Positions 41,060 to 60,017 of a stretch of DNA of 64,000 bases are shown here, piece after piece. The DNA is from Prochlorococcus sp. AG-363-C20. GTDB lineage: Bacteria > Cyanobacteriota > Cyanobacteriia > PCC-6307 > Cyanobiaceae. A program made the position numbers and the translations under genes. The notes below the pieces were generated by a model that worked only from the letters and a program-made list of their open reading frames with translations, ran no database searches and was not told the DNA's origin. Position 1 is the first letter of the stretch. Every line of letters starts with the position of its first letter. The stretch lies in contig QCFI01000006.1 of assembly GCA_003280295.1 (NCBI GenBank), positions 1 through 64,000 of the forward strand, read 5' to 3'.

Positions 41060-42853
41060 ATGTGGAAACTTGGAGCTCTCAACTTAAATAATTTATTGAA
41101 AAATAATTATTTGTATAAAATAATTATCATAATGACACCACGGAGAAGACTTCAATTAATAGGATTGATAATTTTAATGGTAATCAATGGAATAGCAGAA
41201 GCTATTTCTTTAGCCTCTTTTATCCCTTTTATATCGATATTGACCAATCATGAATCATTTTATAATTTAGAACTAGTTTATAAAATCTCAACTTTATTAG
41301 GTATAACTAATAGTAGTCAATTGCTATTACCTATAACAATAATTTTTTGCACTTTAGTCATAATATCTTCATCAATCAGGCTGCTTAATATATGGTGTAT
41401 TGGCCAACTTACCGCAAGGCTGGAAATTGATTTAAGTTATCTTGTATACAAGAGAAACCTTTATCAAACATATAGCGAGTATACAAAAAAGAACTCCTCA
41501 GATATTCTTGCAACAGTTATGAGTTATTCAGCAGCAGCAGTTAGTGCAATAGATGCTTTGTTGAGAATAACATCGGCAACACTTTTGGCGCTGTCAATTT
41601 TAATTTCATTGATTTTATTTAATTGGAAGATGGCATTTACATGTATAGGCATATTTTCATTTTTCTATTTAACAATAAGTAAAACAGTAAGAAGAAAACT
41701 TGAATTTAATGGAAAACTAGAGGCTTCTTTAGACCGTGAGAAGATTAGATCCTTGCAGGAAGGTCTTGGAGGCTTTCGTGATTTACTTATAAATGGGACA
41801 CAAGATGTTTATTTATCATCTTTTGAGAAGTATCAAAGAAAATTAAAAATTAAACTTGCTGAATCTTCATACCTTTCTTCTTTTCCAAGATATGCCATTG
41901 AAGCACTTTGTTTAATATCAATAGCTATTTTCGCACTGCTTTTGTCTAATTCGAATAATAAAGTTATCTCTTTTATACCTTTATTAGGAACGTACGCGCT
42001 AGCTTCTCAAAAGCTATTGCCTACTTTTCAACAATTATATTCAGGATGGGCAGCTTATAAATGGAAATACGCAGGCGTGAAACTTTTACTAAAAGAGTTG
42101 GAAAAACCTTTTTCAATAGAAGTCGACAGAAGCAAAATACCTCCATTACCTTTGAATAAGGAAATACATTTTAATGATTTGAACTTTTCTTATTCTTCTG
42201 GAAATGACTATGCTGTTTTGAAAAATATAAATCTAAAGATAAAGAAAGGCGATAGGTTAGGAATTATAGGGGAGACAGGAAGTGGAAAAAGTACTCTCCT
42301 TGATATATTAATGGGATTACTTAAGCCTACTGGTGGACAATTTTTGATTGATGGGGCTGATTTATATTGTGATAATAATCCACTTAATGTTTACCGTTGG
42401 AGATACTCTATCTCACATGTACCGCAACATATTTTTTTAACAGAAGGGACTATTGCTCAAAACATTGCTTTTGGTAAATCACATGTTGAAATAGATTTTG
42501 ATGAAATTATAGAAGCCGCAAGGAAAGCAAAATTACTTGATTTTATAAATAAAACAAAGTATGGGTTTGATACATATGTTGGTGAACGTGGAATTAGATT
42601 GAGTGGAGGTCAGAGACAAAGAATAGGTATAGCAAGAGCACTTTTCAACAAAACAAATATACTTATTCTGGACGAAGCAACAAGTGCCCTTGATATTAAT
42701 ACCGAGGCGTCGATATTGGAATCAATTAATCAACTAAATGAAGAACTAACTATCATAACTGTCACACATAGAGTAAATACATTAAGAAGTTGCAATCGCT
42801 TAATAAGGGTAAAAGAAGGATCCTTATTTGAGGAGATTGATACGTCAATTTAG
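41060..42853 (+). CDS. ABC transporter, PglK/MsbA-like lipid-linked glycan flippase
   Basis: A half-transporter of 597 residues, expected to flip a lipid-linked sugar or export a surface glycan across the inner membrane. The N-terminal 340 residues hold six hydrophobic segments. The nucleotide-binding domain has Walker A GETGSGKST near 411, a Q-loop (ISHVPQHIFL), signature LSGGQRQRIGIARAL, Walker B ILILDEATSALD and H-loop VTHRVNTL. The resemblance to Campylobacter PglK and the neighbouring PglE- and PglF-like genes suggest glycan assembly rather than drug export; substrate is inferred. Confidence 0.85.
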   Translation: MWKLGALNLNNLLKNNYLYKIIIIMTPRRRLQLIGLIILMVINGIAEAISLASFIPFISILTNHESFYNLELVYKISTLLGITNSSQLLLPITIIFCTLVIISSSIRLLNIWCIGQLTARLEIDLSYLVYKRNLYQTYSEYTKKNSSDILATVMSYSAAAVSAIDALLRITSATLLALSILISLILFNWKMAFTCIGIFSFFYLTISKTVRRKLEFNGKLEASLDREKIRSLQEGLGGFRDLLINGTQDVYLSSFEKYQRKLKIKLAESSYLSSFPRYAIEALCLISIAIFALLLSNSNNKVISFIPLLGTYALASQKLLPTFQQLYSGWAAYKWKYAGVKLLLKELEKPFSIEVDRSKIPPLPLNKEIHFNDLNFSYSSGNDYAVLKNINLKIKKGDRLGIIGETGSGKSTLLDILMGLLKPTGGQFLIDGADLYCDNNPLNVYRWRYSISHVPQHIFLTEGTIAQNIAFGKSHVEIDFDEIIEAARKAKLLDFINKTKYGFDTYVGERGIRLSGGQRQRIGIARALFNKTNILILDEATSALDINTEASILESINQLNEELTIITVTHRVNTLRSCNRLIRVKEGSLFEEIDTSI

Positions 42854-42936
42854 GTGCTTGCCTTCTAAAATTGATTTTTAATAGAAACAATTTTCCTCAG
42901 GGCTTAGTAAGGAGAACCTAAATTTAATTTATTTAA

Positions 42937-44112
42937 TTAGTTTATATAATCTAAAATAGTTGTTATTACATACTCCTGCTCTTCAAAAGTAAGACTAAAT
43001 GATGAAGGTAAAATGATAATTCTCTCCCATAAATTATTTGTTACTTTGAGGTTACCCCTTAATGCATCTTTGTAGGGCTGTTGTATATGTATGGGTCTCC
43101 AGAATTCTTTTGCACGTATAAATTTTTTATTAAGATGATTAATAAGTTGCTTTGGCTTTATTAGAGAGCTTTCATTTATGACAAATCCTGAAAGCCAACA
43201 TGAGCTTGTAGCCCAATCCATTTCTGGTAATGGGTCTAAGACTTTTTCAATTTTTAGTCTTAATGAATATTTTTTTGCGATTTCTCTTTTCTTATAGATT
43301 ATTTCTGTTAGCCTTTCAATTTGTGCTAATCCAATGGCAGCTTGGGTATTAATCATACGATAATTATATCCAATTTGATCATGTACATAGTTTGGTCCTG
43401 TTTTGGCAGTAGAACCTAAATGCTTTGCTTTATTTACTAAATCCTTATTAGGAGAGCAAATCGCACCTCCACCTCCGCAAGTAATTGATTTATTTCCATT
43501 AAATGAAAAGCAGGTCAGATCTGAGAAGGGACCAATGTCTAAATTTTTATACTTTGATCCAATGGCAGCAGCTGCATCTGTTATTAAAGGGATTTTAAAT
43601 TCTTTTGCGATTTCACCTAGTTTGTCCATATTAGCTGGATGTCCAAAAGAAAAAACAGGAACTAATGCTGCTACGCGTTGCCCTGTTTCTTTATGAATAC
43701 AATGATTAGCGTTAACGACTACATTTTTAGCTAGTTCATCATAAAGAATTATAGGATCTATAGTAAGTGATTTAGAATCAATATCTAAAAGCCATGGGAA
43801 AGCACCTGCATGGGAGATAGCATTCGCAGTAGCTATAAATGTATATGATGGAATTATTACTAAATCTCCTTTATTCACTCCTGCAACTAACATAGATAAA
43901 TGTAATGCAGATGTTCCCGAGGAAGTAGTAGTTGTAGAACCATTAGCTAAGCCAACTGAAGAAGATATCTCATCTTCGAATTTTTCAATAAGTGGACCTA
44001 TTGAAGAAAGATAGTTTGTCTTAATACATTGATCTAAATAGTACTTCTCCTTGCCCGACAAATCAGGAATCGAAATTTCTATCCATTTTTTTAAAGAAGA
44101 ATCTTGGCTCAT
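42937..44112 (-). CDS. DegT/DnrJ/StrS (LegC-like) sugar aminotransferase
   Basis: A 391-residue PLP enzyme that would aminate a 4-keto sugar nucleotide. Seen: SSGTSALHLSMLVAGV, PSYTFIATANAI, DAAAAIGSKYKN and the PLP lysine K208 in FSFNGNKSITCGGGG. The FNGNK motif recalls LegC- and PglE-type enzymes, so a UDP-4-amino-4,6-dideoxy sugar is the likely product with the adjacent dehydratase. It ends 83 bases after the convergent ABC gene. Confidence 0.88.
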   Translation of the reverse strand: MSQDSSLKKWIEISIPDLSGKEKYYLDQCIKTNYLSSIGPLIEKFEDEISSSVGLANGSTTTTSSGTSALHLSMLVAGVNKGDLVIIPSYTFIATANAISHAGAFPWLLDIDSKSLTIDPIILYDELAKNVVVNANHCIHKETGQRVAALVPVFSFGHPANMDKLGEIAKEFKIPLITDAAAAIGSKYKNLDIGPFSDLTCFSFNGNKSITCGGGGAICSPNKDLVNKAKHLGSTAKTGPNYVHDQIGYNYRMINTQAAIGLAQIERLTEIIYKKREIAKKYSLRLKIEKVLDPLPEMDWATSSCWLSGFVINESSLIKPKQLINHLNKKFIRAKEFWRPIHIQQPYKDALRGNLKVTNNLWERIIILPSSFSLTFEEQEYVITTILDYIN

Positions 44113-44141
44113 AAAATCTTAAAAGAGTAATCTTTTGGGAT

Positions 44142-46010
44142 TTAGGAATGATTAGTCCATTCTGGCACTATCATTGCCAATTCTTCTAATGCTTTTCTTG
44201 TATTATTATCTTTGATATGTTTTTCAATGATATTAATACTTTCCTTAAGTTTATCTAGAGCAATAAATTTTTCTTTAGCTCTAAAAATCAATGGATGCAA
44301 GGTAGGTTCAGCTTCAGTATCTACTAGCAACTCTTCATATAGCTTTTCACCTGATCGTAATCCAGTAACTATTATTTGAATATCTCCTGCAGGATTTTCT
44401 TCAGTCTTTTCTGTTAATCCAGTAAGGTGGATCATTTGTTTTGCAAGATCCATAATTTTTACAGGTTCTCCCATGTCAAGCAGGAATACTTCACCTCCCT
44501 CTGCGATTACAGAAGCTTGTATTAACAATTGGGCTGCTTCCGGAATAGTCATAAAGTATCTAATTATGTTTTGATGAGTAATAGTAATAGGTCCACCAGA
44601 GGTGATTTGTTCTTTAAAAAGAGGAACTACTGATCCAGAAGAATTTAAGACATTACCAAAACGAACCATTGAGAAGCAGGTGGATTTTTCTTCAGGTTCA
44701 CCTTGTTTAGAACGATTTAAATCAGCGAATCCTTGAACAATCATTTCTGCAAAACGCTTTGATGCGCCCATTACATTGCTCGGACGCACTGCTTTGTCAG
44801 TAGAAATCAGTAGCAATTTTTTCACCATTGCTCTATTGGCAGCATTACAAATAGCAAATGTAGAGAAGATATTATTTCGTAATCCTTGTAAAGGATTTGC
44901 CTGAACTAAAGGTACATGTTTATAAGCAGCAGCATGAAAAACTAATTCGACTTGATTCTTACAAAATAAATTTGTCAATAAAATTTCATCACAAGAATCT
45001 CCTAAGACTGCTACTATTTCTATATTAGTAAGATCTAATATCTTCAATTCTTTGAGTATTGTATATAAATTTGATTCACACCAATCAAATAAGATTAGTT
45101 TTTGTGGACTTAGCTTAATAATTTGGCGACAAAGTTCTGATCCAATTGAACCTCCAGCCCCCGTAACACAAATGATACTATTTTTTATGCTAGGACCTAG
45201 CAAAGTTTGTAATGGAGGAACACTTTCTCGACCTAGTAGATCTTCTATTAGTATTGGTCTTAGTGCATTTACATTGGCTCTACCAGATGTGAGATCACTC
45301 AGTGATGGCATCTGCAAAATCTTTAATTCTTGTTTTTGGATAAAGTTGACTATTTCTTTTCTTCTTTTTCTATCTAGGCTAGGGATTGCCAATAAGACTT
45401 GATCAATTTGATCTTTTACTTTAATAAGCTTACTTGGCGGATTGATAGGAATTCCATCTAAAGTCCTACTCCAAAGTGCAGAAGAGTCATCTATGAATGT
45501 TTTGATTATATAATTTTTGTCCATTTTAAGAGAAGCTGCAAGTTGAGCACCAGCTTCACCTGAACCATAAATTGCTACTTTAAGAATAGGTTTTTGGGAT
45601 ATACCCCCTATGGATAGAAGTAAGTCCCTTAGAATAAACCTTACAAAGCAAATTATCAGAGTTAATATGATCCAGAAAAGAATTGATTCTTTTAGACTAA
45701 ATATATGTTTAGAGTTTATAGATGAATAAATCAAAAGTATGAATACAACTGTTAAGTTTCTGCCTCCAATAAGGTATATATCTTTACTAGATAGGTATTT
45801 AGTCAGACTTTTGTATTGACCAGTAATTATATAAGATAATAAGACAGCGCAAACTATGCTAACTATTTCACCATTTTTAGAGTCGCTACCACTTAGCCAA
45901 AGAGTGAACTTTGATGCATTAATTACTATTAATGTGTCTAATAAAATTAATATAGCTCTTCTATAGGCGGATCTTAATGTTATTACTCTAGAAAGATAGT
46001 TGAATGACAT
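44142..46010 (-). CDS. Membrane-bound NDP-sugar 4,6-dehydratase, PglF/FlaA1/CapD family
   Basis: A 622-residue protein with four N-terminal membrane helices (about residues 15-135), a nucleotide-binding intermediate domain (KVAIYGSGEAGAQLAASL) and a SDR catalytic domain starting at VTGAGGSIGSELCRQII near residue 280. The SDR SxMK-type region reads ISTDKAVRPSNVMGASKR, where classic YxxxK is altered as in this dehydratase family. It should act on UDP-GlcNAc and feed the aminotransferase downstream on the same strand. Confidence 0.9.
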   Translation of the reverse strand: MSFNYLSRVITLRSAYRRAILILLDTLIVINASKFTLWLSGSDSKNGEIVSIVCAVLLSYIITGQYKSLTKYLSSKDIYLIGGRNLTVVFILLIYSSINSKHIFSLKESILFWIILTLIICFVRFILRDLLLSIGGISQKPILKVAIYGSGEAGAQLAASLKMDKNYIIKTFIDDSSALWSRTLDGIPINPPSKLIKVKDQIDQVLLAIPSLDRKRRKEIVNFIQKQELKILQMPSLSDLTSGRANVNALRPILIEDLLGRESVPPLQTLLGPSIKNSIICVTGAGGSIGSELCRQIIKLSPQKLILFDWCESNLYTILKELKILDLTNIEIVAVLGDSCDEILLTNLFCKNQVELVFHAAAYKHVPLVQANPLQGLRNNIFSTFAICNAANRAMVKKLLLISTDKAVRPSNVMGASKRFAEMIVQGFADLNRSKQGEPEEKSTCFSMVRFGNVLNSSGSVVPLFKEQITSGGPITITHQNIIRYFMTIPEAAQLLIQASVIAEGGEVFLLDMGEPVKIMDLAKQMIHLTGLTEKTEENPAGDIQIIVTGLRSGEKLYEELLVDTEAEPTLHPLIFRAKEKFIALDKLKESINIIEKHIKDNNTRKALEELAMIVPEWTNHS

Positions 46011-46457
46011 GATTATTCTTATCTAAAATAATTAATAGGCTTAGCTTTAATCGATAAAAAAACAAAAGGGTTATTGAAATTATAAGTTATTAGTAATCTA
46101 TTTAACAGGGAAGAAGGCTTAAAGCCGATTAATAAAACAATAAAAACTAATTTATTATTATTGCAGTGTTGAGATTTTGCAAGTTGTTGTAAATCTGGGC
46201 ATATTATGGTTTTGACTGGCATAGCAAATATATAGCCATGAGTTAGTATTGAGCTCACCTTAGCCTTCTCCTAAGCCATGATAAATATTTACTATGCGAC
46301 ACTGAAATGTTAAATTAGTATATATAAACTATAGCACAAACGGATAATTCGAACAAATTTCAAACAAAGCCTCCAAATTTTTACTCTTACTCAATTTGCT
46401 TTTATTAGAGCGTATATTAACTCATCACTTCATGGTGCCAGAGCAAAATAACTCTAT
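46011..46457. other. Gene-poor gap in the island
   Basis: 447 AT-rich bases between the dehydratase and the Wzy-like gene. The longest frame (reverse strand, 46019-46258, 79 codons) resembles nothing I know and has no family motif, so I do not call it a gene. It may be decayed sequence or hold the dehydratase promoter. Confidence 0.5.
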
Positions 46458-47858
46458 TTATGGGTCTACCCTGCTTTGAGTTCTATTTGGTATCAAATAT
46501 AAATAAGTAAGTCCAATAAATAAAAAATACTCTTGCCGTCTATGAACCAAGAATGCACATAGGAGCAACAATGAAAGAGTATAATAGAGAGATCTATCAA
46601 ATAAATTAGATTTTTTATCAAAAACAACATTTGAAGTGATCCACCAGTAAATATATAGAAATGAACCTAAACCAATAACCCCATTTTCATATATTAATCT
46701 AGTCAGCGAGGAAAAAGAGTTATATAGTGCACCATAATCTCCTTTAAATGAAGATATTAGAAAACTAACACTACCATGACCATGACCAATAATTAGATTA
46801 ATAAAGTCACTCAAATCATTTGGAGTAAGAGCAATATATAGTGGATACCATACTGATAATTGAGCATTAAGTACATGTGCACCAAGAATAACTTCAGTAA
46901 TGTCTATTGCTTTTTCATTGAATATATCTAGAAGTTCAGTAATAGACAATACATAAATATTTAGTCTAGCCGCACCAATTAATTCAAGTATATCTGGTTG
47001 CAAAAGGATATATATTAACCCGTAAATAATAAAAGCAATAACGGAAAATATAAATATAGTAGATTTTTTAATTTTAAATGAAATCAATGAATTAAATAAG
47101 GTTAAAATGACTGATGATATTTTGATTGATATATATAGTATTATCGTTAATATTGAGGTGGCTGATTTTGTCAAGATTATTGAGAATAATCCAATCGGTA
47201 AAATAATTTTAGTAAAAAGTTTCTTGTACTTTTTAAAATTTTCAGAAACTAATGGAGATATAGAAAATATTGATAAACAAATTAAGTAATATAAACCTGC
47301 CACAACATAATCCCTAGGCTCATTGGTTATGGAGTGGAATCTTGTTCCTATATATATGCGATCAAAAATTGATCTGCCTAGGAAAGTTTTCCCTAAGGAG
47401 GAGAAAATTATATCAATGAAACCAATAATTAAAATCCAATTAAATACAGTTAGTATAATCCTAGGTAATTTTCGCAATGTAGATTCATCTAAAACTAACT
47501 TTGGAAGGATTATAAAAACAATTATATAGGTTATATAAATTAAGGGTTCTACAATACCAAATCTAATCTTTTCTACCAAACTTGAATAGTAAAATATTGG
47601 ATAGACTCCACAGATAATATTATAGAGAAGGAAAGGTGCAAAAGGATATTTAGATAAGCTAATATTCAGTGACTTAATCAGTATCCCAGATTTGCCTAGA
47701 AATATTAGACGAAGAATAAACAAAATTGTTATAACTCTTCCCAAATAAAGACTTGGCAAGAAGCCAATTCTTGTGATTATAAAATATTGTATTGGCTCTA
47801 TAGCAAATTGATAACTACATAATTTTGCAGCGCTTAATTTAATACTATTTATTATCAA
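46458..47858 (-). CDS. Wzy/O-antigen-ligase-like polytopic membrane protein
   Basis: A 466-residue protein with about ten to twelve hydrophobic segments and a large loop (residues about 300-390; NLIIGHGHGSVSFLI is the kind of motif seen in polysaccharide polymerases). It is isoleucine-rich and of very low GC coding. By context it is likely the polymerase or ligase that links repeat units of the surface glycan. Sequence similarity of this family is low, so polymerase and ligase cannot be separated. Confidence 0.65.
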   Translation of the reverse strand: MIINSIKLSAAKLCSYQFAIEPIQYFIITRIGFLPSLYLGRVITILFILRLIFLGKSGILIKSLNISLSKYPFAPFLLYNIICGVYPIFYYSSLVEKIRFGIVEPLIYITYIIVFIILPKLVLDESTLRKLPRIILTVFNWILIIGFIDIIFSSLGKTFLGRSIFDRIYIGTRFHSITNEPRDYVVAGLYYLICLSIFSISPLVSENFKKYKKLFTKIILPIGLFSIILTKSATSILTIILYISIKISSVILTLFNSLISFKIKKSTIFIFSVIAFIIYGLIYILLQPDILELIGAARLNIYVLSITELLDIFNEKAIDITEVILGAHVLNAQLSVWYPLYIALTPNDLSDFINLIIGHGHGSVSFLISSFKGDYGALYNSFSSLTRLIYENGVIGLGSFLYIYWWITSNVVFDKKSNLFDRSLYYTLSLLLLCAFLVHRRQEYFLFIGLTYLYLIPNRTQSRVDP

Positions 47859-47950
47859 CTTTAAAATGCATTTCTTATATTATAAAACCATCCTATTCAT
47901 TTAGCAAGAATTTATCTAAACTAAAATAGGGTTCCGAAAGAATATTATAA

Positions 47951-48868
47951 TCAAAACCATTTATTAGAAAAAATAATTCTTTTAAAATTAATCAATATAG
48001 CTGGTAAGATTGGCATATAACTAAAAATCACGTAGGCGAGATTACGTAAACTACTATATTTAAAAAGAAGTTCCTTCTTCTTAGGAATCTCTGTATACGA
48101 AAGGCATAGCATTCTTTTTTGTGCTAGCAGTAAAATTTCCAACTCCTTGATATATTTTCTATAATTAACCATGTATTCATTTTTAAGGTGATATTCACAC
48201 CATCGACGCTTCTCAGCGATAAACTTTGAACTATTTTTAAACGTTTCACTAGACCTATGAACTCTCCAGCCGGATAAGACCTCATTTATATATGCAACCT
48301 TGCTAATTGTTGAGAGTCTAACGATTATATCGAAATCTGATGTATGACTATAATTGGGATCAAATGCATACGGTAATTGCAAAAGTTTTTTTTTATCTAT
48401 TACTATAGAAACTAATGTTAGACTATAATTAGTGATCAGTGAATTTGTAGTAGGAATTTTTTGTAATCCTTTTGAATATAAAATCTCCTTTCTCTTCTGA
48501 TTAAAAAATATTGTATTAGAGAAACATATTCCTATTTCTTCGTTTTCAAAAACTTTTATTTGTTTTTCAAGTTTCTGTGGCATCCATATATCATCTACAT
48601 CAAGAAATGCTATATAGTCTCCAGTAACTTTTTGAAATGCCCTTGCTCTTGCTGTACCTAAATCAGAATGATTGTCTGCCAGATAATATTTAATTCTTTC
48701 ATCAGCATATGACAAGGCAATCGATTTAGAGTCATCAACAGATTGATTATCCCATAAGATAATTTCCCAGTTTTTGTATGTTTGAGCTAATACACTTTCA
48801 ATTGATTCAGATAAATAATTACCTGCATTGTAGCAATTCATTAATATACTTACTTTCTTATAAATCAT
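47951..48868 (-). CDS. Family 2 glycosyltransferase
   Basis: A 305-residue GT-A enzyme. VSILMNCYNAGNYLSESIES opens the nucleotide-sugar fold, and IAFLDVDDIWMPQKLEKQI contains the DxD metal motif. A basic C-terminal tail with a hydrophobic patch (VIFSYMPILPAILINF) may attach it to the membrane. It overlaps the epimerase gene by 11 bases, so it probably transfers the sugar made by that operon. Confidence 0.87.
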   Translation of the reverse strand: MIYKKVSILMNCYNAGNYLSESIESVLAQTYKNWEIILWDNQSVDDSKSIALSYADERIKYYLADNHSDLGTARARAFQKVTGDYIAFLDVDDIWMPQKLEKQIKVFENEEIGICFSNTIFFNQKRKEILYSKGLQKIPTTNSLITNYSLTLVSIVIDKKKLLQLPYAFDPNYSHTSDFDIIVRLSTISKVAYINEVLSGWRVHRSSETFKNSSKFIAEKRRWCEYHLKNEYMVNYRKYIKELEILLLAQKRMLCLSYTEIPKKKELLFKYSSLRNLAYVIFSYMPILPAILINFKRIIFSNKWF

Positions 48869-49784
48869 AATTTTCTACATACCATGATATAGTATTTTTT
48901 AGAGAATCTATAAGCTCAGAATCTGGAGTCCAATTAAGAATTTCCCTTGCAAGTTTTATATCTGCAAAGAGCTCCATGCTTTCATCAACCCTATAAGGTA
49001 TCGCTCCAAAGATTGGTTGCCCTTTCCCTATAATATCTTTTACAAGCTCTGTAACTTTTAGCACAGAGATAGGATTTCCAGAGGCAAGATTAATTATTTT
49101 CCCAAATGAGTAGGGGTTGTCAAAACAACTTATTATACCTTCAGAAAAATCTCTTATATAACAAAAGTCTCTAAGTTGTTTTCCTTCAGATACAGGAAAA
49201 CTATTGTTATTCAAACAATTTCTAATTACATGTGGTAAAAACCTGTTTGTACTCTGGCCCTCTCCAAAAACCAAGAAAGGCCTAATCACTACTGAAGGGA
49301 ATTGGTTTTGCCTGTAAAGAAGTTGCATTAGCTGTGTTGAGCACAACTTACCCAAAGAGTATGGCGATATTGGAGCCTCTCTACATGACTCTTTAATAGG
49401 AGACGTCTGATTTCCATATTCATCACTGCTTCCAATATTTATAAAAGTCTTTATTCCAATTTCAGAAGCATATTCTACTAAGTTTTTGGTAGAGATAAAA
49501 TGTTGATTAAATATTTCTAATCCGCCATTGTAGAATTGCTTGTGATCTATATAGCCAGAGCAATTGATTATATAATCTGTACTCCCAAGACTCTCTAAAA
49601 CCTTACTAGGTATAGGATTAATTAAATTATGTTGTATGTACTTCACTAAATCTACTTTCCTATAAGTCTTTGGCGGATTTATTGAAATAGAAATCACTTC
49701 AAAACCTTTATCTATACACAATCTTGCAATATTAGAACCTATAAAACCAGTTCCACCGGCTATTAAAACCTTTCCTTTTACCAT
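48858..49784 (-). CDS. NAD-dependent nucleotide-sugar epimerase/reductase
   Basis: A 308-residue extended SDR with the Rossmann motif GGTGFIGSN near residue 10, NIGSSDEYG, the catalytic YSLGK, and VIRPFLVFGEGQ. It lies last-but-one in the CDP-glucose operon, so reduction or epimerisation of a CDP-4-keto-6-deoxysugar is the likely role. It overlaps rfbF by seven bases. Confidence 0.82.
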   Translation of the reverse strand: MVKGKVLIAGGTGFIGSNIARLCIDKGFEVISISINPPKTYRKVDLVKYIQHNLINPIPSKVLESLGSTDYIINCSGYIDHKQFYNGGLEIFNQHFISTKNLVEYASEIGIKTFINIGSSDEYGNQTSPIKESCREAPISPYSLGKLCSTQLMQLLYRQNQFPSVVIRPFLVFGEGQSTNRFLPHVIRNCLNNNSFPVSEGKQLRDFCYIRDFSEGIISCFDNPYSFGKIINLASGNPISVLKVTELVKDIIGKGQPIFGAIPYRVDESMELFADIKLAREILNWTPDSELIDSLKNTISWYVENYDL

Positions 49785-50539
49785 AATTCTCCTTTTAACT
49801 TTATGAGATTATCCATATTGTCTTTATCTCTTTTGGTGTCAACACATTGCCAAAAGCCATCAAACTTATATGCCATTAATTGATTATCATAACTCATTTT
49901 TTCTAATGGTTCTCTTTCTAATATTGAACTATCATTAATGATATAGTCAAATATACCCGGTTCTGCAACAAAAAAACCACCATTTATCCATCCCTCTTGT
50001 AATTGAGGCTTTTCTTTGAAGCTGGTAATAGAATTCTCATCAGATATTTTCATTTCTCCAAACCTAGCTGAAGGCCTTACGGCTGTAACGGTTAATAGTT
50101 TTCCATGAGACTTGTGAAATTCAATCACTTTATTAATATCTAGAGAGGTTACAGCATCTCCATAAGTTAGTAGGAATGTTCCATCTGAAAGATAATCCTT
50201 TAATCTTAATAACCTACCTCCAGTCATAGAATCATTACCAGTGTCAATAAGACTAACTGTCCAATTAGGAGCTTTAGTTTCATAGAACTTGATAGAGCCT
50301 GTTGATAGATTTATACAGAAGTCTGAATTAAGTATTTGATATTTATAAAAATAATCTTTTATCACTTCTGCTTTATAACCCAAAGCTAAGTAGAAATCAT
50401 TATGGCCATATTTTGCATAAATATTCATTATGTGTTCAATAATTGGCTTGTTGCCAATTGTTATCATTGGCTTTGGAACTATGGATGTAAATTCTGATAG
50501 TCTTGTGCCGAAACCGCCTGCTAGGATAACAACCTTCAT
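49778..50539 (-). CDS. rfbF: Glucose-1-phosphate cytidylyltransferase
   Basis: Makes CDP-glucose from glucose 1-phosphate and CTP. The 253 residues begin MKVVILAGGFGTRLSEFTSI and contain VPKPMITIGNKPIIEHI, LLTYGDAVTSLDI and WINGGFFVAEPGIFDYI. This is the family length. It sits six bases after the cupin gene in the operon, with rfbG upstream of both. Confidence 0.92.
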   Translation of the reverse strand: MKVVILAGGFGTRLSEFTSIVPKPMITIGNKPIIEHIMNIYAKYGHNDFYLALGYKAEVIKDYFYKYQILNSDFCINLSTGSIKFYETKAPNWTVSLIDTGNDSMTGGRLLRLKDYLSDGTFLLTYGDAVTSLDINKVIEFHKSHGKLLTVTAVRPSARFGEMKISDENSITSFKEKPQLQEGWINGGFFVAEPGIFDYIINDSSILEREPLEKMSYDNQLMAYKFDGFWQCVDTKRDKDNMDNLIKLKGELW

Positions 50540-50545
50540 TTGAAA

Positions 50546-50968
50546 TTAAACTAATGGGAGGTAGCTCACTGGCTTCCTCTCAACCTCGCTAGGGTCGTGA
50601 AGAATATCAGCAATATTAAGTATATAACTATCATGCTTTGATAAGCCAACAAATCCGAACCAAATCCCTGGAGGAACAGATACTTTTCTATAGTTTTTCT
50701 CTCCAATTTCAATCTTCATGATTAATTCTTTACTTTCATCATAAAAAATAAACTTTACTGATCCAATTGGAACAATTAGATTCATGGTCATCTTTAGGTG
50801 TCTTTTCCAAGCCTTTACATAACCAGGCTGAACAATAGAAAAATATGCCTCACCAAAACCGTTAAACATATGATCGGTATTTCTTATAACATGTAATACA
50901 TCACCTCCCTCAACATTAATTCTTCTAAGAGGGGAGATATGAATAGTTTTGTTCTTATTTAAATCCAT
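50546..50968 (-). CDS. dTDP-4-dehydrorhamnose 3,5-epimerase-like cupin
   Basis: A 140-residue single cupin domain (ISPLRRINVEGGDVLHVIRN, FGEAYFSIVQPGYVKAWKRH, VPPGIWFGFVG) related to RfbC but shorter than the usual 180. The histidine of the AWKRH segment matches the catalytic position of the family. In this operon it would act on CDP-4-keto-6-deoxyglucose rather than a dTDP sugar; that is inference. It overlaps rfbG by ten bases. Confidence 0.8.
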   Translation of the reverse strand: MDLNKNKTIHISPLRRINVEGGDVLHVIRNTDHMFNGFGEAYFSIVQPGYVKAWKRHLKMTMNLIVPIGSVKFIFYDESKELIMKIEIGEKNYRKVSVPPGIWFGFVGLSKHDSYILNIADILHDPSEVERKPVSYLPLV

Positions 50969-52050
50969 GTGTTACCTCTTATTCGGGAGGCTATTGTGTA
51001 TTCTTTAATTTGTTCTTTGCAAAGATCATAGGTATCAAATCTCTTTGAATAATAAAACTTAGAATACCATTTCTTAGTAAATTGCATTGTTTCCTGGAAA
51101 TTTAATACAGCTTTCCAATTCAATAGGGACAATGCTTTGTCACAATTTAATTTTAGCAATCTAGATTCTTTCATTTTTTTATTATTAACTTCCTCAATTT
51201 TCCATGATGCATTTTCCCATTCTGTGGAAAGTTCCTTTACAATATCAAGAACATTATGTGTATTATCTGAATTAGGCCCGAAATTAAAAGAATGGCCATT
51301 TAGATTATTATTTAGATTTTGAGCTAAACATAAATATCCACTTAAAGGCTCGAGAACATGTTGCCATGGCCTAGTTGAACTTTGAGAACGTATCAAAACT
51401 GTTTCTTGATTTGTCCATGCACGAATGCAATCTGGCACAATTCTGTCCTTTGCCCAATCCCCTCCACCTATAACATTTCCTGCTCTTGCTGAGGCAATCA
51501 TTATGTTGCTTTCATCTTTATAGAAATATGAGCGGTAAAAGGAGCTGATTGCAATTTCGGCTGAGCCCTTAGAAGCACTATAAGGATCTGCTCCACCTAG
51601 TTTGTCATTTTCTCGATAACCCCAATGCCATTCAAGATTGTCATAACACTTATCGCTTGTAATAAAAACAGCTTTACATTGCTGCTTATTAACTCTAATA
51701 GCATCAAGAATATTAATTGTTCCAATAACATTCGTATTCCATGTTTCAATTGGATCTATATAGGATTGCTTGACAATTGGTTGAGCAGCAAGATGAAAGA
51801 TAAAGTCTGGCTTTATTTCCTTAATCAGTTTTCTGACTTCTAAATGATTCTGGACATTTACTCTAATATCAATAATTTTATTTGCTAGAATTGATTCCTC
51901 AAATATTGAGGGTTTGGTGGGTGGATCTAATGCTAATCCATAAACTTTTGCCCCAAGTGTTAAAAGCCATATTGTCAGCCAGGAACCTTTAAAACCAGTG
52001 TGTCCAGTAATTAGGACTTTTTTGTTTTCAAATGTCTTTTTGAGACCCAT
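50959..52050 (-). CDS. rfbG: CDP-glucose 4,6-dehydratase
   Basis: A 363-residue extended SDR that makes CDP-4-keto-6-deoxyglucose. Seen: VLITGHTGFKGSWLTIWLL (Rossmann), HLAAQPIVKQSYIDP, FITSDKCYDN and YSASKGSAEI (YxxxK), SARAGNVIGGGDWAKDRIVPD. It heads the reverse-strand operon rfbG, cupin, rfbF, epimerase, glycosyltransferase, whose members overlap or nearly touch. Confidence 0.93.
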   Translation of the reverse strand: MGLKKTFENKKVLITGHTGFKGSWLTIWLLTLGAKVYGLALDPPTKPSIFEESILANKIIDIRVNVQNHLEVRKLIKEIKPDFIFHLAAQPIVKQSYIDPIETWNTNVIGTINILDAIRVNKQQCKAVFITSDKCYDNLEWHWGYRENDKLGGADPYSASKGSAEIAISSFYRSYFYKDESNIMIASARAGNVIGGGDWAKDRIVPDCIRAWTNQETVLIRSQSSTRPWQHVLEPLSGYLCLAQNLNNNLNGHSFNFGPNSDNTHNVLDIVKELSTEWENASWKIEEVNNKKMKESRLLKLNCDKALSLLNWKAVLNFQETMQFTKKWYSKFYYSKRFDTYDLCKEQIKEYTIASRIRGNTWI

Positions 52051-52442
52051 ATTTTTGGGCGCCTTTCATTCTTTCTGAAACATTATATCATTAAAGTGAT
52101 TAACAAAAAGAAGCATGTGATTTATTAAAAATGAAAAACTTGTTTACTATTTATTGACATTGCAAATGTTCAACATCAGATTTAATTAAAGAGTTATGTT
52201 ACGCCTTCGCAACTTTACATCCTGATAGATATACAAGAAGCCTCATCATAATTAATCTCAAAGAAAAGTAATAACAGGTTCTTTGTTGTTAACTTCTTAT
52301 TCTAATGAGCAATAGGTTGGAGATAGAGAATTAAATCATACATAAAGTTGATATTTGCAGAGTTAATTAGCCCTATACTTTGCTCATAAACTCGTAAAAG
52401 AAACAATCTTATCAAGCAAAGATCTAAATAGTTTATGACAAG
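52051..52442. other. Gap ahead of the CDP-glucose operon
   Basis: 392 AT-rich bases without a convincing reading frame. It should hold the rfbG promoter. TTGACATTGC at about 52156 is the best -35-like element I see, but it is on the forward strand and leads to no gene. Confidence 0.4.
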
Positions 52443-53519
52443 TTAATTCTTTTTAGGCTTGGGTGAAATCCATTCTTTATGTGCTTTATGTAAAGACTCT
52501 GGCTTCCCTATGTCTATCCAGTATTCATGTATTGGAAAGGCGAAAATATTTTTATACTTTTCTTTGACTCTTATTATTAATGAAGGCATATCTAGAAAAG
52601 TATTTTCTTTTATGTATTCTTTTAGTAGGCTTGGTTTGACTAAATAAATTCCTGCATTGACAAGAAATGAATAGGTTGGCTTTTCTATTATGTTTTCGAT
52701 ATATATACCCTTTAGATTGATAACCCCATAGGGGATGTCTTTTCTTTCTTGTCTTGTACAAACGGTTATTTGAGCATTATTCTTATAGTGAAACTTAAAT
52801 AAATTATCGAAATCTAAATGTGTAAGGATGTCTCCATTTATGACAAGAATTGATTCTTGTATGCTTTCAGGTAGAAGCTGAAGTGAACCTGCAGTTCCTA
52901 AAGGCTTTAGTTCATGTAAATATTGGATACTAACGCCCCATTCGGAACCATCACCAAAATAATCTATGATTTGATTTTTCAAATAGTTTACTGATATGTA
53001 GAAATCTTTTAATCCATAATTAATACAGTTCTCTAAGATTATATGCAGTATAGGTTTACCACCTATAGGAAGCATTGGTTTTGGACAATCTTTTGTATAT
53101 GAACCTAATCTAGATCCTTTACCTCCAGCCATAATGACTACAGGATTGTTTTTTGTAGGATTTACTATTGATAATGGTTTATTTTGTATTGCAATATCTA
53201 TTACTGCTCCAGACTTGTCAAGTATAGGTATAATATTTACGCCACTTTTTTTGAACTCTTCTCTTATTTTTGAATCGGATAATTCATGGTAATAAATGCT
53301 TGTAAAATTTGAATTCATAAATTCTTTGACATTAGACTCAAGTGACTTTCCACTTAATAGACCTCTTCTAATATCTCCATCAGTTACTGTTCCTACAAGC
53401 TTATTTGATTCATCGATTATTAATGCAATATATGCTCTTGAACTACTATTGTTTATTATTGCTATAGCTTCGATTGTTTTAGCATTGCTGCATAAGAGAA
53501 GATCAGAAAAGATTGACAT
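52443..53519 (-). CDS. CBS-domain sugar-phosphate nucleotidyltransferase
   Basis: A 358-residue two-part protein. Residues 1-120 are a CBS pair (AYIALIIDESNKLVGTVTDGD, RGLLSGKSLESNVKEFM). The rest is a nucleotidyltransferase with MAGGKGSRLGSYTKDCPKPM and VINGDILTHLDF. The arrangement is that of PtmE/LegF-like guanylyltransferases of legionaminic-acid pathways, where the CBS pair is thought to regulate. Here no Leg partners sit beside it, so the substrate is open. It is flanked by gene-poor stretches on both sides. Confidence 0.85.
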   Translation of the reverse strand: MSIFSDLLLCSNAKTIEAIAIINNSSSRAYIALIIDESNKLVGTVTDGDIRRGLLSGKSLESNVKEFMNSNFTSIYYHELSDSKIREEFKKSGVNIIPILDKSGAVIDIAIQNKPLSIVNPTKNNPVVIMAGGKGSRLGSYTKDCPKPMLPIGGKPILHIILENCINYGLKDFYISVNYLKNQIIDYFGDGSEWGVSIQYLHELKPLGTAGSLQLLPESIQESILVINGDILTHLDFDNLFKFHYKNNAQITVCTRQERKDIPYGVINLKGIYIENIIEKPTYSFLVNAGIYLVKPSLLKEYIKENTFLDMPSLIIRVKEKYKNIFAFPIHEYWIDIGKPESLHKAHKEWISPKPKKN

Positions 53520-54101
53520 GGTTATTTATCAAGAATGGTTTCTGAATTAGATTACTTTTCTTGAACAAAAGGCCTCTCATTATAAATGATAATAAATTAG
53601 TTCCTAATATAGCATTTATAGGTTTATAGGAGTGCAAACTTTTTCGTAAGCTCTTATCTAATGATATATTAATTAAAATCTAATTTATTGAGATAAAGGA
53701 AATGAGATTGTCTCTAAATATTGATACAGTAATTATGAGTAAAATCCTATAGTATTTAGTTGCTTATATAGTGAGTGTCTTTTAAGAGCGAAGAATAATG
53801 TGTCTGATTAAGTCGACTTAGTTTGATAAGAACTAAATTTAAATGAGATTAGATGATGGAATGAAGAATAATACTATCTTATAGCCTTTATGCAATCTAA
53901 GACAAATCGCATCAAGTTTTCTGTAGTGAGACTCTTTTCCATTAAGATAAAATCAAAGGATCAGTTCAAATCCAGTATGAGGAATGAAACACCTAAAAAA
54001 AAGATAGTATACTATGTACACCATATCAATTTTTCAGCAATTTAAAAAATATAGATCTAAAATCCTTCTAACAAATTTTTTATTCCTAAATTAATTTTTC
54101 A
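53520..54101. other. Gene-poor divergent gap
   Basis: 582 AT-rich bases between the divergent CBS nucleotidyltransferase and UDP-glucuronate decarboxylase. No convincing frame, RNA gene or repeat was recognised. It probably holds both promoters and may be remnant sequence. Confidence 0.45.
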
Positions 54102-55061
54102 ATGCCAACAGCACTTCGCAATTTAGTTACTGGTGGCGCAGGTTTTTTAGGTTCACACCTTGTTGATCGCTTAATGGAGGCAGGAGAAGAGGTTATTTCT
54201 CTAGATAATTACTATACTGGTAGGAAGAAAAATCTAATTAAGTGGATAACAAACCCTCGATTTGAATTGATTAGACATGATGTTACTGAGCCAATTCAGC
54301 TTGAGGTAGATAGAATTTGGCACTTAGCATGTCCTGCTTCCCCAGTTAGCTATCAATACAACCCTATCAAAACCTCTAAGACAAGTTTTTTAGGTACTTA
54401 CAATATGCTTGGTTTGGCAAGAAGAGTAAAAGCCCGGTTTTTATTGGCCTCAACTAGTGAAGTTTATGGTAACCCAGAAGTGCATCCACAGCCAGAATCT
54501 TATCGAGGATGTGTAAGTACAACTGGTGTACGTAGTTGTTATGACGAGGGTAAGAGAATTGCCGAATCTTTATGTTTTGATTATTACCGTATGCACGGAT
54601 TGGATATACGTGTTGCTAGGATTTTTAATACTTATGGGCCTCGTATGGTTCCAGATGATGGAAGAGTTATTAGTAATTTTGTGGTTCAAGCACTGAATAA
54701 TAGTTCAATAACTCTTTACGGCGAAGGCAAACAAATACGATCTTTTTGTTATGTTGATGATTTAGTAGAAGGTCTTATTAGATTAATGAATTCTTCACAA
54801 CCAGGGCCGATAAATCTCGGTAATCCGAGGCAATCTTCTATTCGTCAGCTTGCTGAATTAGTACGGTCAAAGATAAATCCAAAACTAGACTTTGTCTCAA
54901 AGTCATTACCTCAAGATGACCCACTTCAACGTCAACCTGTCATAGATTTAGCAATAAAAGAGTTAAATTGGGAACCCAAAATTTCACTCGAAGAAGGATT
55001 AGATAAGACAATTGAGTTTTTCCAGGACGAATTATTTAACTCTAAGGCTGATGTTTTTTAA
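54102..55061 (+). CDS. UDP-glucuronate decarboxylase (UDP-xylose synthase)
   Basis: A 319-residue extended SDR converting UDP-glucuronate to UDP-xylose. Seen: [16 protein letters not shown] near residue 10, [45 protein letters not shown] (YxxxK with the family glutamate) and [10 protein letters not shown], plus [12 protein letters not shown]. The HPQPE and YDEGKR blocks are diagnostic of the xylose synthase type. It lies 70 bases before the next epimerase gene. Confidence 0.92.
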
Positions 55062-55131
55062 TCAACTTTGCTTAGTACAATCAAATACTCACTTGTGTCA
55101 TGAATATCTTACTTTGGATGTGAGGCATTAA

Positions 55132-56169
55132 ATGGATAGAAAGAAGAGAACTATTCTTGTCACTGGCGTTGCTGGTTTTATAGGTGCTGCTTTGGTTCCA
55201 AGATTTTTGAAACAAGGAGAGAGAGTTGTTGGTATTGATAATTTAAATTCATATTATGATCAAAGCCTCAAAAGAGCGCGCCTTGAACAGATCAAAAGAA
55301 TAACAGGCTCCTCTTTAGAAAATTGGATTTTTCATGAAATTTCAATTGAGGATAGTAGTTCTATTAAAAAACTTTTTAAAGAGGAATCTCCTGAAATTGT
55401 TGTAAATTTAGCTGCTCAAGCAGGTGTTAGATATTCCTTAGAGAACCCTTCAGCTTATGTACAAAGTAATTTAGTTGGCTTTGGAAATATTCTTGAAGAG
55501 TGTAAAAATCATAATATCGAACATCTTGTCTATGCTTCAAGCAGCTCTGTATATGGAGGAAACATTAATTTGCCTTTTAGTGAGAATCAGTCTGTAAACC
55601 ATCCAGTAAGTCTATATGCAGCAACAAAAAAGGCGAATGAATTAATGGCACATACATATAGTCATATTTATAAACTTCCAGCCACTGCATTACGCTTCTT
55701 TACTGTGTATGGTCCATGGGGAAGACCTGATATGGCACCAATGATTTTTACCAAATCCATTCTTTCGGGTACGCCTATTCAGGTTAATAATTATGGTCAT
55801 ATGCAAAGGGACTTTACGTATATAGATGATATTGTAGAAGGTCTTTTTCGTTGTTGTTATAAACCCGCCACTAAAAATGATGCTTTTGATTCATTACATC
55901 CAGACCCAGCAACTTCTTCTGCACCACACCGAATATTTAATATTGGCAATAGTCAGCCAATAGATTTATTGCAATTTATCGAAGTTATTGAAAACACTTT
56001 AGGAATAAAGGCCTTAAAAAGTTTTCAACCATTGCCTCCTGGTGATGTTATAGCTACAGCTGCTGAGACAAAAGCGTTGGAATCCTGGGTTGGGTTTCGA
56101 CCTGAGACATCAATTGAAGATGGAATCCGGAAATTTATAAAATGGTATCGTGATTATTATAAAGTATAA
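55132..56169 (+). CDS. UDP-glucuronate 4-epimerase-type SDR
   Basis: A 345-residue extended SDR (TGVAGFIGAALVPRFLKQGE, NLNSYYDQSLKRARL, NLAAQAGVRYSLENP, SSSSVYGG, YAATKKANELMAH, RFFTVYGPWGRPDMAP). The NSYYD and RYSLENP blocks fit the UDP-glucuronate 4-epimerase (GalA-forming) group. With the decarboxylase it would compete for UDP-glucuronate, giving xylose and galacturonate for the glycan. No UDP-glucose dehydrogenase is in the window. Confidence 0.88.
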   Translation: MDRKKRTILVTGVAGFIGAALVPRFLKQGERVVGIDNLNSYYDQSLKRARLEQIKRITGSSLENWIFHEISIEDSSSIKKLFKEESPEIVVNLAAQAGVRYSLENPSAYVQSNLVGFGNILEECKNHNIEHLVYASSSSVYGGNINLPFSENQSVNHPVSLYAATKKANELMAHTYSHIYKLPATALRFFTVYGPWGRPDMAPMIFTKSILSGTPIQVNNYGHMQRDFTYIDDIVEGLFRCCYKPATKNDAFDSLHPDPATSSAPHRIFNIGNSQPIDLLQFIEVIENTLGIKALKSFQPLPPGDVIATAAETKALESWVGFRPETSIEDGIRKFIKWYRDYYKV

Positions 56170-56664
56170 TTTTGTGCATTATATAAAATCTATTTTTTAA
56201 AATTCTTTCAATATACTCTTCTATTATTAGTAAATGACATGCCAAAAAATTGAGATTAATTATCATTGAAAAAGTATGGCAAGGGAAAATAATCATCTCT
56301 TAGCATGAATAGAGTAATAGCTTCTATAAAGCAAATATAATCTATGACAGCCTGTTTAAAACTAAATAATCTAGATTAGCTATACTGGTGGATCGCTCCC
56401 TTGCTTCGTGCACAGTGCGTATAAATTGAATTTGTACAAATTCTTGCCTTTATCGAAATTGTTATTCATTGGGTTGGAGGAAGAATGACTTTCCCTGAGT
56501 CCTTTTAGGTAATTGCTACTTTGCATGGCTTCCTTTGACTCAATTTTATTTTGAAGATGACAATAATAAAACCTGGTGATTAGGTATTTCTTCTTAAACT
56601 ATAAAGTTTAGAGTCTGTCAAAATCTCCTTTCTCAGAAGCTCAATTTCAAAGAGCTTAAAGGCT
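56170..56664. other. Gene-poor gap with a perfect palindrome
   Basis: 495 bases before the DUF2862 gene. The notable parts are a more GC-rich patch near 56390-56420, a perfect palindrome at 56428-56443, and GGAGG four bases before the ATG of a seven-codon frame (56485-56508). None of them proves a gene. Confidence 0.45.
56428..56443. promoter_or_regulatory. 16-bp perfect palindrome
   Basis: GAATTTGTACAAATTC reads identically on both strands. It lies in an otherwise asymmetric gap 222 bases before the DUF2862 start, next to TATAAATT. A dimeric regulator site is possible. The spacing does not fit NtcA (GTA-N8-TAC). Confidence 0.35.
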
Positions 56665-57096
56665 ATGTCTCAAGCTCTTTCTATTTTTGATATAGGTTCA
56701 AAGGCCACCGTGGATCTTTATAAGGTTAGAGATCGAATCCCTAAAAGATTGTCTGATTTGTTAATTATTGATCCAGTCGGTACTATTGTTGATTACAAAA
56801 TGACTGATGGGAAAGGAATAGGAGTCGTTTTGATCTTAAGTGATGGTTCCACTAGTTGGTTTTTTGAAGATGAGTTGAAGAATGGTGAATTACTAAAAGC
56901 AGCTCTTTCATTTCAGAATAATGAAACAAATCAGGATAAACTTGACGATAAATTGATTCTTTTATCGAATAATAAAAATAATATACAGAATGAAACTTTT
57001 GATAGATCAAATCTTATTGGTAAAGGAATTTTAGACTTAATGAATCCAGTGAATTTCTTTAGGTGGATCCTTTTCTCTTTGAAAGATGTTTATTAG
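56665..57096 (+). CDS. DUF2862-family protein
   Basis: A 143-residue protein whose first 70 residues match the small cyanobacterial DUF2862 family (FDIGSKATVDLYKVRDRIP, GTIVDYKMTDGKGIGVVLIL, SWFFEDEL). It then has an asparagine-rich low-complexity stretch and a C-terminal hydrophobic segment (FFRWILFSLKDVY). The tail is longer than the usual domain. Role unknown. Confidence 0.78.
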   Translation: MSQALSIFDIGSKATVDLYKVRDRIPKRLSDLLIIDPVGTIVDYKMTDGKGIGVVLILSDGSTSWFFEDELKNGELLKAALSFQNNETNQDKLDDKLILLSNNKNNIQNETFDRSNLIGKGILDLMNPVNFFRWILFSLKDVY

Positions 57097-57654: not shown

Positions 57655-58023
57655 TCAATCTCTGAAGATTTTGAGATCAGATTGACTAAAAAGATCGTTT
57701 AGAAATGTTTCCCTGATACCTCTATCCTTTGCTCCATTTCGAAATAGAAAGTTAGCCAATGCAGAGTTAAATAAGCTGTATTGGTCCCAATTGGGATTTG
57801 ATCCGATAAAGCCCATCATTTCTTTATAAAGCTCTTCTGGCAACTCCGTCTCTAAACGTATAGAAGTGCTTGAACAAGTATGAACAATTTCATCAGCAGT
57901 ATTCCAAAAGGGTGTGGTTTCTTGTTTTAAAAGCGATTGTTCTAATGACTCTAGATCTTGAGCTTTCATTACTTCTTTCTCAAAACTAACTCTACTTTCC
58001 AAGAATTTGTTGGCATTCGTCAA
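57655..58023 (-). CDS. DUF2811-like protein
   Basis: A 122-residue protein. Residues 55-100 (IRLETELPEELYKEMMGFIG, NPNWDQYSLFNSALANFLF) resemble the cyanobacterial DUF2811 domain, thought to be a small ribbon-helix-helix-like or regulatory fold; function is not established. The N-terminal 50 residues are acidic and helical. The DnaA-box cluster lies 143-206 bases upstream of its start. Confidence 0.7.
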   Translation of the reverse strand: MTNANKFLESRVSFEKEVMKAQDLESLEQSLLKQETTPFWNTADEIVHTCSSTSIRLETELPEELYKEMMGFIGSNPNWDQYSLFNSALANFLFRNGAKDRGIRETFLNDLFSQSDLKIFRD

Positions 58024-58165
58024 GGAGGACTGACTCTTTTTGTCTTAGCCTTTCTTACACTAAGACTCGCTTTAGATATGAGCTTTCAGTCGAATTAAGC
58101 TTGTCAGTTTGGAAAAATTTGCGATGAGGCTACTTATGTCAAGTAAAAATGTGCAGGATTTAGGC

Positions 58166-58229
58166 TTTTCCACATGGTTCTGTTGCTCAAATAAAATAAA
58201 TGTAAAGTCTGTGGAAAAGATGTGGATAA
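58166..58229. promoter_or_regulatory. Cluster of DnaA boxes
   Basis: Three perfect 9-mers: TTTTCCACA at 58166-58174 (forward), its complement TGTGGAAAA at 58210-58218, and TGTGGATAA at 58221-58229 (complement of TTATCCACA). The latter two are separated by two bases and face the first across an AT-rich 35-base spacer. A fourth copy, TGTGGAAAA, is at 58654-58662. TTTTCCACA is the DnaA box described for cyanobacterial origins. A DnaA-binding locus is likely; whether it acts as origin, titration site or regulatory site is not shown. Confidence 0.55.
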
Positions 58230-58560
58230 CCTTTAGCGATTTGGCTAAACGCGTCAAAACTATCCATTGATAAGACTATTTAATTACCGCCAGGAATCTC
58301 ATCTTGTCCTATGGTTCTTGCTTAGCAAATTTTAAAATGAGGTTGTTTGAACATCTCCCTATCGCTGCCCTTATATGATTTGGTGTCCCCCTTAGAGATG
58401 ATTCAATGCAGCTCCTGATGGGGCTTGAAGTGATGTAATTTGTTGCAAAGACTAGAATTTGTCTTGTTGAGTGTTCGTTTGATGCCCAGATTTCCCATGA
58501 CATACGTTGAATGTAAAAATCTCTTCTTAGCACTCCGAGAATCAATTGCATCCCAATTTA

Positions 58561-58650
58561 ATGAGAGATAGATTATCTAGAGGAGCAGGACCAGACGGCA
58601 ATAATAATCATGGCAAATACGTAAGTACTAAATCCTTCTGGATTCGTTAA
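58561..58650 (+). CDS. Possible 29-residue small protein
   Basis: An ATG-to-TAA frame giving MRDRLSRGAGPDGNNNHGKY followed by VSTKSFWIR. It looks less random than typical intergenic translation but has no ribosome-binding site or known family. It lies in the 1-kb gap 58024-59036, which otherwise holds the DnaA boxes, the 47-residue frame at 58776 and a hairpin. Confidence 0.2.
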   Translation: MRDRLSRGAGPDGNNNHGKYVSTKSFWIR

Positions 58651-58775
58651 TGCTGTGGAAAAGATGTTTTTATTTGGGTGTGTGGGTGCTTAGAAGCTGA
58701 ACAACTTTTTACTTTTATGCGAATGATGATGGTCGGCTCTTCTAATTAATCCATTTTTGAATTTGAGAATTCATA

Positions 58776-58986: not shown

Positions 58987-59036
58987 CCTTGCGTTTCTCT
59001 CGGAGACTGGATTTATAGAACCTTTTGTTTTGGAAA

Positions 59037-59110
59037 CGCTCCCTGCTGGATTCGAACCAGCGACAAGCTGCTTAGAAGGCAGCTGCTCTATCCAGCTGAG
59101 CTAAGGGAGC
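59037..59110 (-). tRNA. tRNA-Arg (UCU anticodon)
   Basis: 74 nt on the reverse strand: acceptor GCTCCCT with AGGGAGC, discriminator G, anticodon stem GCTGC/GCAGC with loop CTTCTAA giving TCT, and T-arm CTGGTTCGAATCCAG. CCA is not encoded. It marks the right edge of the accessory region. Confidence 0.96.
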
Positions 59111-59180
59111 ACATTTGTATTTTGTCAGTCAAAGTGTAACTTCAACGTTTATGGTTGGATGCTGTGAAATTGCATCCATT

Positions 59181-60017
59181 GTGGCAAGGAGGCTCACTGA
59201 AAGCCAAAAGCAACATCTTGTGGAAGGATACCGTTTAGGGGATTCGACCACTAGTCTGGCTGCGAAGTATGGGTGTAGTCAAAACACAGTTATTAGAACT
59301 GTAAAAACCTCTTTGTCTTCAGATGAATACAATGCCCTTAAAAATGCAAGGTTTAAAGGAGGGAGTGTATTAACAAATTCAAGTTTTGAAGAAAAAACAA
59401 GTTCCTTTAATCAAAAACAAACAAAGCCAAAAGAAGGTTTTGTTCAGAAGGGTCAAGATGATGCAAGAGATTCTAATCAAATTAGAAAGGATTCTAATCA
59501 AACAGTTGAAGAATATGATCTCTTTGTAGGAGAACAAGTATCAGGCATTTTGGCATTAGATGATTCTGATGACTTTGATGAAGATCTACAGGAAGAGGCT
59601 AAAGGGTTAGAAGTTTCGAAATTAAATGTTGAAGAATCTTCATCGATAGATCTATTTCAGGAAGTTACTCCACTTGTATCAGACTTTCAAGAAATTCAGA
59701 GTAAGGAAGTTGATTGTACAAGACTAGGGCCTGGAATTTTGCCTAGTGTTGTTTATATGTTGGTCGATAGATCGGTAGAATTAGATGCTCGACCTCTTAA
59801 AGAATTTACTGAACTTGGATTGATCCCTAAAATTGATCAAGATCGTCAAGCACTTTATTTGTTTTCCAATCAAAGATCTGCAAAACGTAATTGTGGTCGT
59901 AGTCAACGAGTTATTAAGGTTCCTAATACAGATGTGTTTGGAATCTCTACACCCTATTTGTTAGCAAGAGGCATAACAAGATTGGTTCTGGAAGGATCAT
60001 TAATAGCTCTAGATTAA
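59181..60017 (+). CDS. Helix-turn-helix protein, cyanobacterial, unknown role
   Basis: About 278 residues from GTG 59181 (VARRLTESQKQHLVEGYRLG). The first 50 residues form a resolvase/transposase-like helix-turn-helix (TTSLAAKYGCSQNTVIRTVK), followed by a long acidic low-complexity linker and a conserved C-terminal domain (LGPGILPSVVYMLVDRSVEL, FGISTPYLLARGITRLVLEG). No recombinase catalytic residues are seen, so it is not a transposase. The frame is open to TTG 59115, and ATG 59151 is an alternative; GTG begins the family-like sequence. A DNA-binding role is inferred. Confidence 0.75.
   Translation: MARRLTESQKQHLVEGYRLGDSTTSLAAKYGCSQNTVIRTVKTSLSSDEYNALKNARFKGGSVLTNSSFEEKTSSFNQKQTKPKEGFVQKGQDDARDSNQIRKDSNQTVEEYDLFVGEQVSGILALDDSDDFDEDLQEEAKGLEVSKLNVEESSSIDLFQEVTPLVSDFQEIQSKEVDCTRLGPGILPSVVYMLVDRSVELDARPLKEFTELGLIPKIDQDRQALYLFSNQRSAKRNCGRSQRVIKVPNTDVFGISTPYLLARGITRLVLEGSLIALD

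Follow-up and report, generated by a model that had tools for sequence, protein, structure and literature searches.

The window analysed here, a stretch of 64,000 nucleotides from Prochlorococcus sp. AG-363-C20, contains the four perfect DnaA 9-mers that a sequence-only reading had reported between 58166 and 58662 (497 b). On the minus strand lie the main box of the array, TTTTCCACA (58210..58218), assigned by sequence match and alignment, and an outer tandem member, TTATCCACA (58221..58229), recognised by the conserved CACA of this tandem partner in 67 aligned loci. The convergent partner, TTTTCCACA on the plus strand (58166..58174), was assigned by sequence match and by its conserved step of 44 b from the main box. 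The distal box, TTTTCCACA on the minus strand (58654..58662), aligns with boxes at nearly the same position in two relatives that carry this extra locus as well. The reading had described two oppositely oriented boxes; the box at 58166 does face the pair, and the description could be refined, in that 58210 and 58221 form a tandem with an 11-b step and the facing step is 44 b. Downstream of the array, the minus strand carries a DUF2811 gene (57655..57969, ATG at 57969), which encodes a type B paralogue of 104 aa with the domain at residues 39-94 (PF10929, E = 6e-21). Two -35-like elements on the same strand lie between the array and the gene. TTGACA (58137..58142) is 23 b past the convergent box, where CTTGAC is present in most loci of the same family. 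TTGACG (58018..58023), identified by comparison with other loci, is 195 b past the main box, and is the probable counterpart of the class-wide DUF2811 promoter described below; its -10 is degenerate in the window copy. From the DUF2811 start (57969) to the tRNA-Arg gene (59036-59111), the sequence gave no Pfam or Rfam match.

The cluster is located away from dnaA and dnaN, as had been claimed, since dnaN is on contig C11 and dnaA on contig C1. In the whole assembly (1.75 Mb, 65 contigs), TTWTCCACA occurs 46 times and the reversed control motif 56 times, and therefore the motif is not enriched genome-wide. The cluster itself proved exceptional rather than commonplace: the probability over the genome that any box has three others within 500 b by chance is ~2e-5. 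The notion of a chance cluster, for which the shortness of the motif speaks and nothing further, is practically negligible in view of this value and of the class-wide conservation described below. The sole other box pair within 100 b in this genome (C11:33634/33672) lies ~280 b upstream of dnaN and is the presumed oriC. No box with up to one mismatch was found within 1.5 kb of dnaA.

The layout of the array in the window recurs in two relatives (G004:C4 and G006:C17), where CTTGAC follows a convergent box placed 44-45 b from the tandem boxes, and the window locus is therefore an extra, duplicated copy. Two tandem DUF2811 genes, type A and then type B, follow the array in these relatives, and the window keeps type B alone; the distal box is 434 b upstream in the relatives versus 444 b in the window. 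The ~420 b that separate the distal box from the array (58231-58653, minus strand) contain patches conserved in G004 and G006, such as TTTAAGATTTGCTAAGC, and gave no Pfam or NCBIfam match. The two other DUF2811 copies of this genome (type A on C8 and type B on C4) have weaker versions of the array, and only imperfect boxes are found at some type B copies within the genus. Paralogues A and B and the extra copy in the window each have their own array plus CTTGAC elements, and DUF2811 genes at non-syntenic places within the genus likewise have boxes directly upstream.

A check on close relatives showed the array to be conserved and not peculiar to this site. At least one perfect box was present at -450..-180 of the DUF2811 domain in 74 of 80 named Prochlorococcus/Synechococcus loci, while the rest of these loci contained 13 boxes in 855,515 b; the GC content of the 80 loci spans 33-64%. 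In the core aligned from 67 loci, TTTTCCCC lies 33 b upstream of the main TTTTCCACA, a weak tandem box with 99% conserved CACA lies 11 b upstream, and the convergent TGTGGAAAA follows 44/45 b after the main box, so that the 11-b tandem and 44-b convergent steps of the window are both conserved at other loci. Past the convergent box, 41 of the 67 aligned loci have a TTGAC, mostly at 20-24 b, and a second CTTGACG is found mostly 192-199 b after the main box. CTTGACG followed 16-18 b on by a match to TGTGGAGAACT was detected in 45/80 loci versus 0/80 in the control region. This motif contains TGTGGAGAA, a DnaA box with one mismatch on the opposite strand.

The array is present upstream of DUF2811 throughout Cyanobacteriia, in nearly every family sampled. 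In the other families, 76 of 79 DUF2811 loci (28/29 and 48/50 in two sets) had perfect boxes at -650..-170, and the background away from the array was 0.015-0.065 boxes per kb over the loci of both groups (~0.06 per kb in other families). The geometry is strict. Non-redundant tandem steps are confined to 11, 12, 21, 22, 31, 33 and 44 b, convergent steps are 44 b (53 loci), 45 b (19 loci) and 46 b (2 loci), no divergent box pair was seen in the DUF2811 arrays, and the orientation of the array relative to the gene is fixed. Arrays of the other families are mostly tandem at 21/22 b. These families also share a promoter-like ATTGACA...GC(G)CACAATGAT, most commonly 170-198 b beyond the final tandem box; no clear helical phase relative to the array could be established, the support for strict phasing being weak. 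An RNA-leader hairpin formed by the inverted boxes was considered and rejected, because most arrays of the other families are purely tandem, the boxes precede the class-wide promoter, and no Rfam match was found. In family f16, TTATCCACA replaces TTTTCCACA at every array position, and this uniformity is as expected of one shared binder. Two dnaA-positive genomes (G165 and G213) have no recognisable boxes at DUF2811, and neither do two f1 loci (L147 and L165). Upstream of DUF2811 in G213 (f31, L298), TCCCC-containing repeats resembling TTTTCCCCA are found instead of TTTTCCACA, and they possibly reflect a changed DnaA specificity.

A blind exact scan for the convergent pair, TTTTCCACA-N35/36-TGTGGAAAA (44/45 b), was performed on 242 genomes with the reversed motif as the control. 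The pair was found in 36 genomes, at one site each, and the reversed control gave none. DUF2811 was present within ~550 b downstream of the pair in 31 of the 36 genomes, 26 by profile search and five more from further fetched sequence. The exceptions were G224, G339, G197, G240 and G179, the last being at a contig edge. The arrays away from DUF2811 in G224 (L225 2567-2664) and G339 (L226 2527-2623) have convergent steps of 44/45 b and tandem steps of 21/22 b, and that of G224 is flanked by the 3' ends of two convergent genes, guaA and an unknown one. Similar arrays in G197 and G240 (family f15; L227 2501-2890 and L228 1404-1739) are upstream of a hemJ-like gene. The DUF2811 genes of these four genomes are located elsewhere, likewise with boxes. 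As a separate observation, perfect box pairs 281-286 b apart in three genomes of the genus (L379 2284/2565, L380 2317/2603 and L381 2268/2551) adjoin a recG-like and/or a dipeptidase-like gene.

These exceptions bear on the main rival reading, in which the array serves to titrate or reactivate DnaA and DUF2811 is a mere neighbour. Clusters of DnaA boxes outside oriC that sequester or re-activate DnaA are known in B. subtilis, and in E. coli as datA, DARS1 and DARS2 (PMC7198777, and general knowledge). The DUF2811 array resembles them in being such a non-oriC cluster; its boxes are of the high-affinity type and a long way from oriC (in closed genomes, 0.28-0.9 Mb separate them from dnaN), and the arrays of the same geometry in G224 and G339, the former where no promoter is expected, are candidate titration sites. 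On the other hand, the DUF2811 array differs from those clusters in its convergent 44-b pair and in being linked and oriented to one gene family. A datA/DARS-type site would act independently of its neighbouring gene; 31 of the 36 exact pairs are at DUF2811, and two are at other places, in one case between convergent genes. A pure titration site need not adjoin one gene class-wide in one orientation, repeated at every paralogue and new copy, and in a dnaA-less genome described below the DUF2811 promoter outlives the array. A cis-regulatory array fits better than passive titration because of the fixed orientation, the spacing, the persistence of the promoter and the separate array of each paralogue and extra copy. 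Titration with no part for DUF2811 is thus an unlikely explanation, and the arrays away from DUF2811 keep alive the view that titration may be an additional role.

The distribution of dnaA supports the identity of the binder. The array boxes, TTTTCCACA and its variants, match those that these genomes carry upstream of dnaN. dnaA is absent from three genomes that are 99% complete (G282, G288 and G294), two of which (G282 and G294) also have no DUF2811; the co-absence gave a one-sided Fisher p = 0.0007 among genomes at least 90% complete. The third, G288, keeps DUF2811 and the promoter ATTGACA, with no box in the 1.48 kb of upstream sequence available, and 48 of the remaining 49 loci of its set have boxes. 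As far as the few dnaA-less genomes tell, the array sites depend on the presence of dnaA. A monophyletic dnaA-less clade has been described (PMC7198777). These genomes possibly derive from few loss events or one, and therefore the evidence is strong but not independent.

The same observations were weighed against autoregulation, in which TTTTCCACA would be an operator for DUF2811 itself, acting as a possible ribbon-helix-helix protein, and not a DnaA site. In DUF2811, helices come after an extended stretch, an arrangement that might belong to a DNA-binding fold, and 11-b tandem repeats suit some dimeric repressors too. However, the 9-mer and its variants also make up the oriC boxes that the same genomes have upstream of dnaN, G288 retains DUF2811 without boxes once dnaA is gone, and no fold match supports DNA binding. 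Two AlphaFold models had low confidence (pLDDT 63 and 69) and gave no informative match to PDB or VIA; the DUF2811 sequence had no match among solved structures, and Pfam showed nothing besides DUF2811 near the cut-off for the window protein. A ribbon-helix-helix fold is therefore only an idea, and autoregulation appears very improbable. DUF2811 is present in 238 of the 242 sampled Cyanobacteriia genomes, and all six sampled genomes of genus g9 (G015, G069, G096, G118, G136 and G151) lack it. A phage origin of DUF2811 was rejected, as no relative was found in IMG/VR. We found no publication naming DUF2811 in a search of open-licence literature, and an earlier description elsewhere is possible.

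The suggestion of a second or reserve replication origin was not upheld. The density of boxes is origin-like, and the relatives G119, G030 and G078 have no perfect box upstream of dnaN. Nevertheless, in G005 and G119, two closed relatives, the sampled GC skew turns from negative to positive only near dnaN, with the DUF2811 sites within an arm, and the window has no skew switch at 58 kb. The DUF2811 arrays share the 9-mers TTTTCCACA and TTATCCACA with the cyanobacterial oriC upstream of dnaN, and the 11/21-b tandem steps with some oriC arrays, but oriC arrays are mostly divergent, and those at DUF2811 are either convergent or tandem throughout. An origin at this site is accordingly regarded as most improbable, even less credible than autoregulation.

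The remaining proposal, a DnaA-controlled promoter of DUF2811, is strongly supported by the class-wide conservation, the fixed geometry and orientation, the array at each paralogue and the loss of the boxes in a dnaA-less genome. The boxes lie at or upstream of the promoter and are conserved with the gene. The cluster is thus probably an array to which DnaA binds and through which it regulates the minus-strand DUF2811 gene starting at 57969. In this model, DnaA would occupy the tandem boxes (11-b step) together with the convergent box at a 44-b step, all on about one helix face, and the bound DnaA would alter transcription from the promoter or promoters between the array and DUF2811. As for the sign of regulation, the position of the array, upstream of the -35 elements, slightly favours activation, and repression by looping is possible because a box-like sequence covers the -10 in many picocyanobacteria. 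DUF2811 may then report DnaA activity, and hence the replication state, by analogy with sda in Bacillus subtilis. We infer both the DnaA occupancy and the replication-linked role of DUF2811 from these comparisons.

The B. subtilis sda gene is a DnaA-controlled gene for a small checkpoint protein, and is the nearest analogue of the system described here. Direct binding of DnaA at the sda promoter was reported (PMC8203912). In both cases, DnaA sites, predicted ones at DUF2811, are located by the promoter region of a gene for a small protein, away from oriC. However, DUF2811 shares no recognised family with Sda, and its array is ~150-200 b upstream of the -35 with the strict 11/21/44-b geometry. 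Unlike the sda case, the DUF2811 array is class-wide and repeated at paralogues, and DnaA control is a prediction from sequence.

The disruption of dnaA in three cyanobacteria did not affect growth under optimal conditions, which counts against the proposal, and the role of DnaA in cyanobacteria that keep dnaA yet replicate without it is an open question (PMC7198777). The literature that we found on cyanobacterial DnaA deals with oriC. The conserved arrangement points to an old, previously undescribed control circuit that would tie DUF2811 to DNA replication. More tentatively, and with the odds somewhat against it, the path from DnaA to DUF2811 could be an ancestral replication-state circuit, in which DUF2811 is a dedicated effector coupling DnaA to initiation, cell cycle or transcription, and could be one reason why dnaA persists where it is unneeded for replication. 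The array offers a specific candidate DnaA target for tests in strains that survive deletion of dnaA (Synechocystis 6803, Nostoc 7120 and Synechococcus 7002), and thereby bears on the question above. If the proposal is true, it would provide the first functional lead for the near-universal cyanobacterial DUF2811.

Two further features were observed around the locus. On the other side of the tRNA-Arg gene, the plus strand encodes a 300-aa protein (59115-60017) that is present in 136 of the family's 151 genomes; it had no Pfam or NCBIfam match, and its start seems helix-turn-helix-like. On the DUF2811 side, the GC content of 42000-57000 is 0.30-0.33, compared with ~0.42 before it, and this stretch resembles a genomic island; two genes for sugar-nucleotide epimerase-like proteins (54102-56169) lie at its end near the DUF2811 locus.
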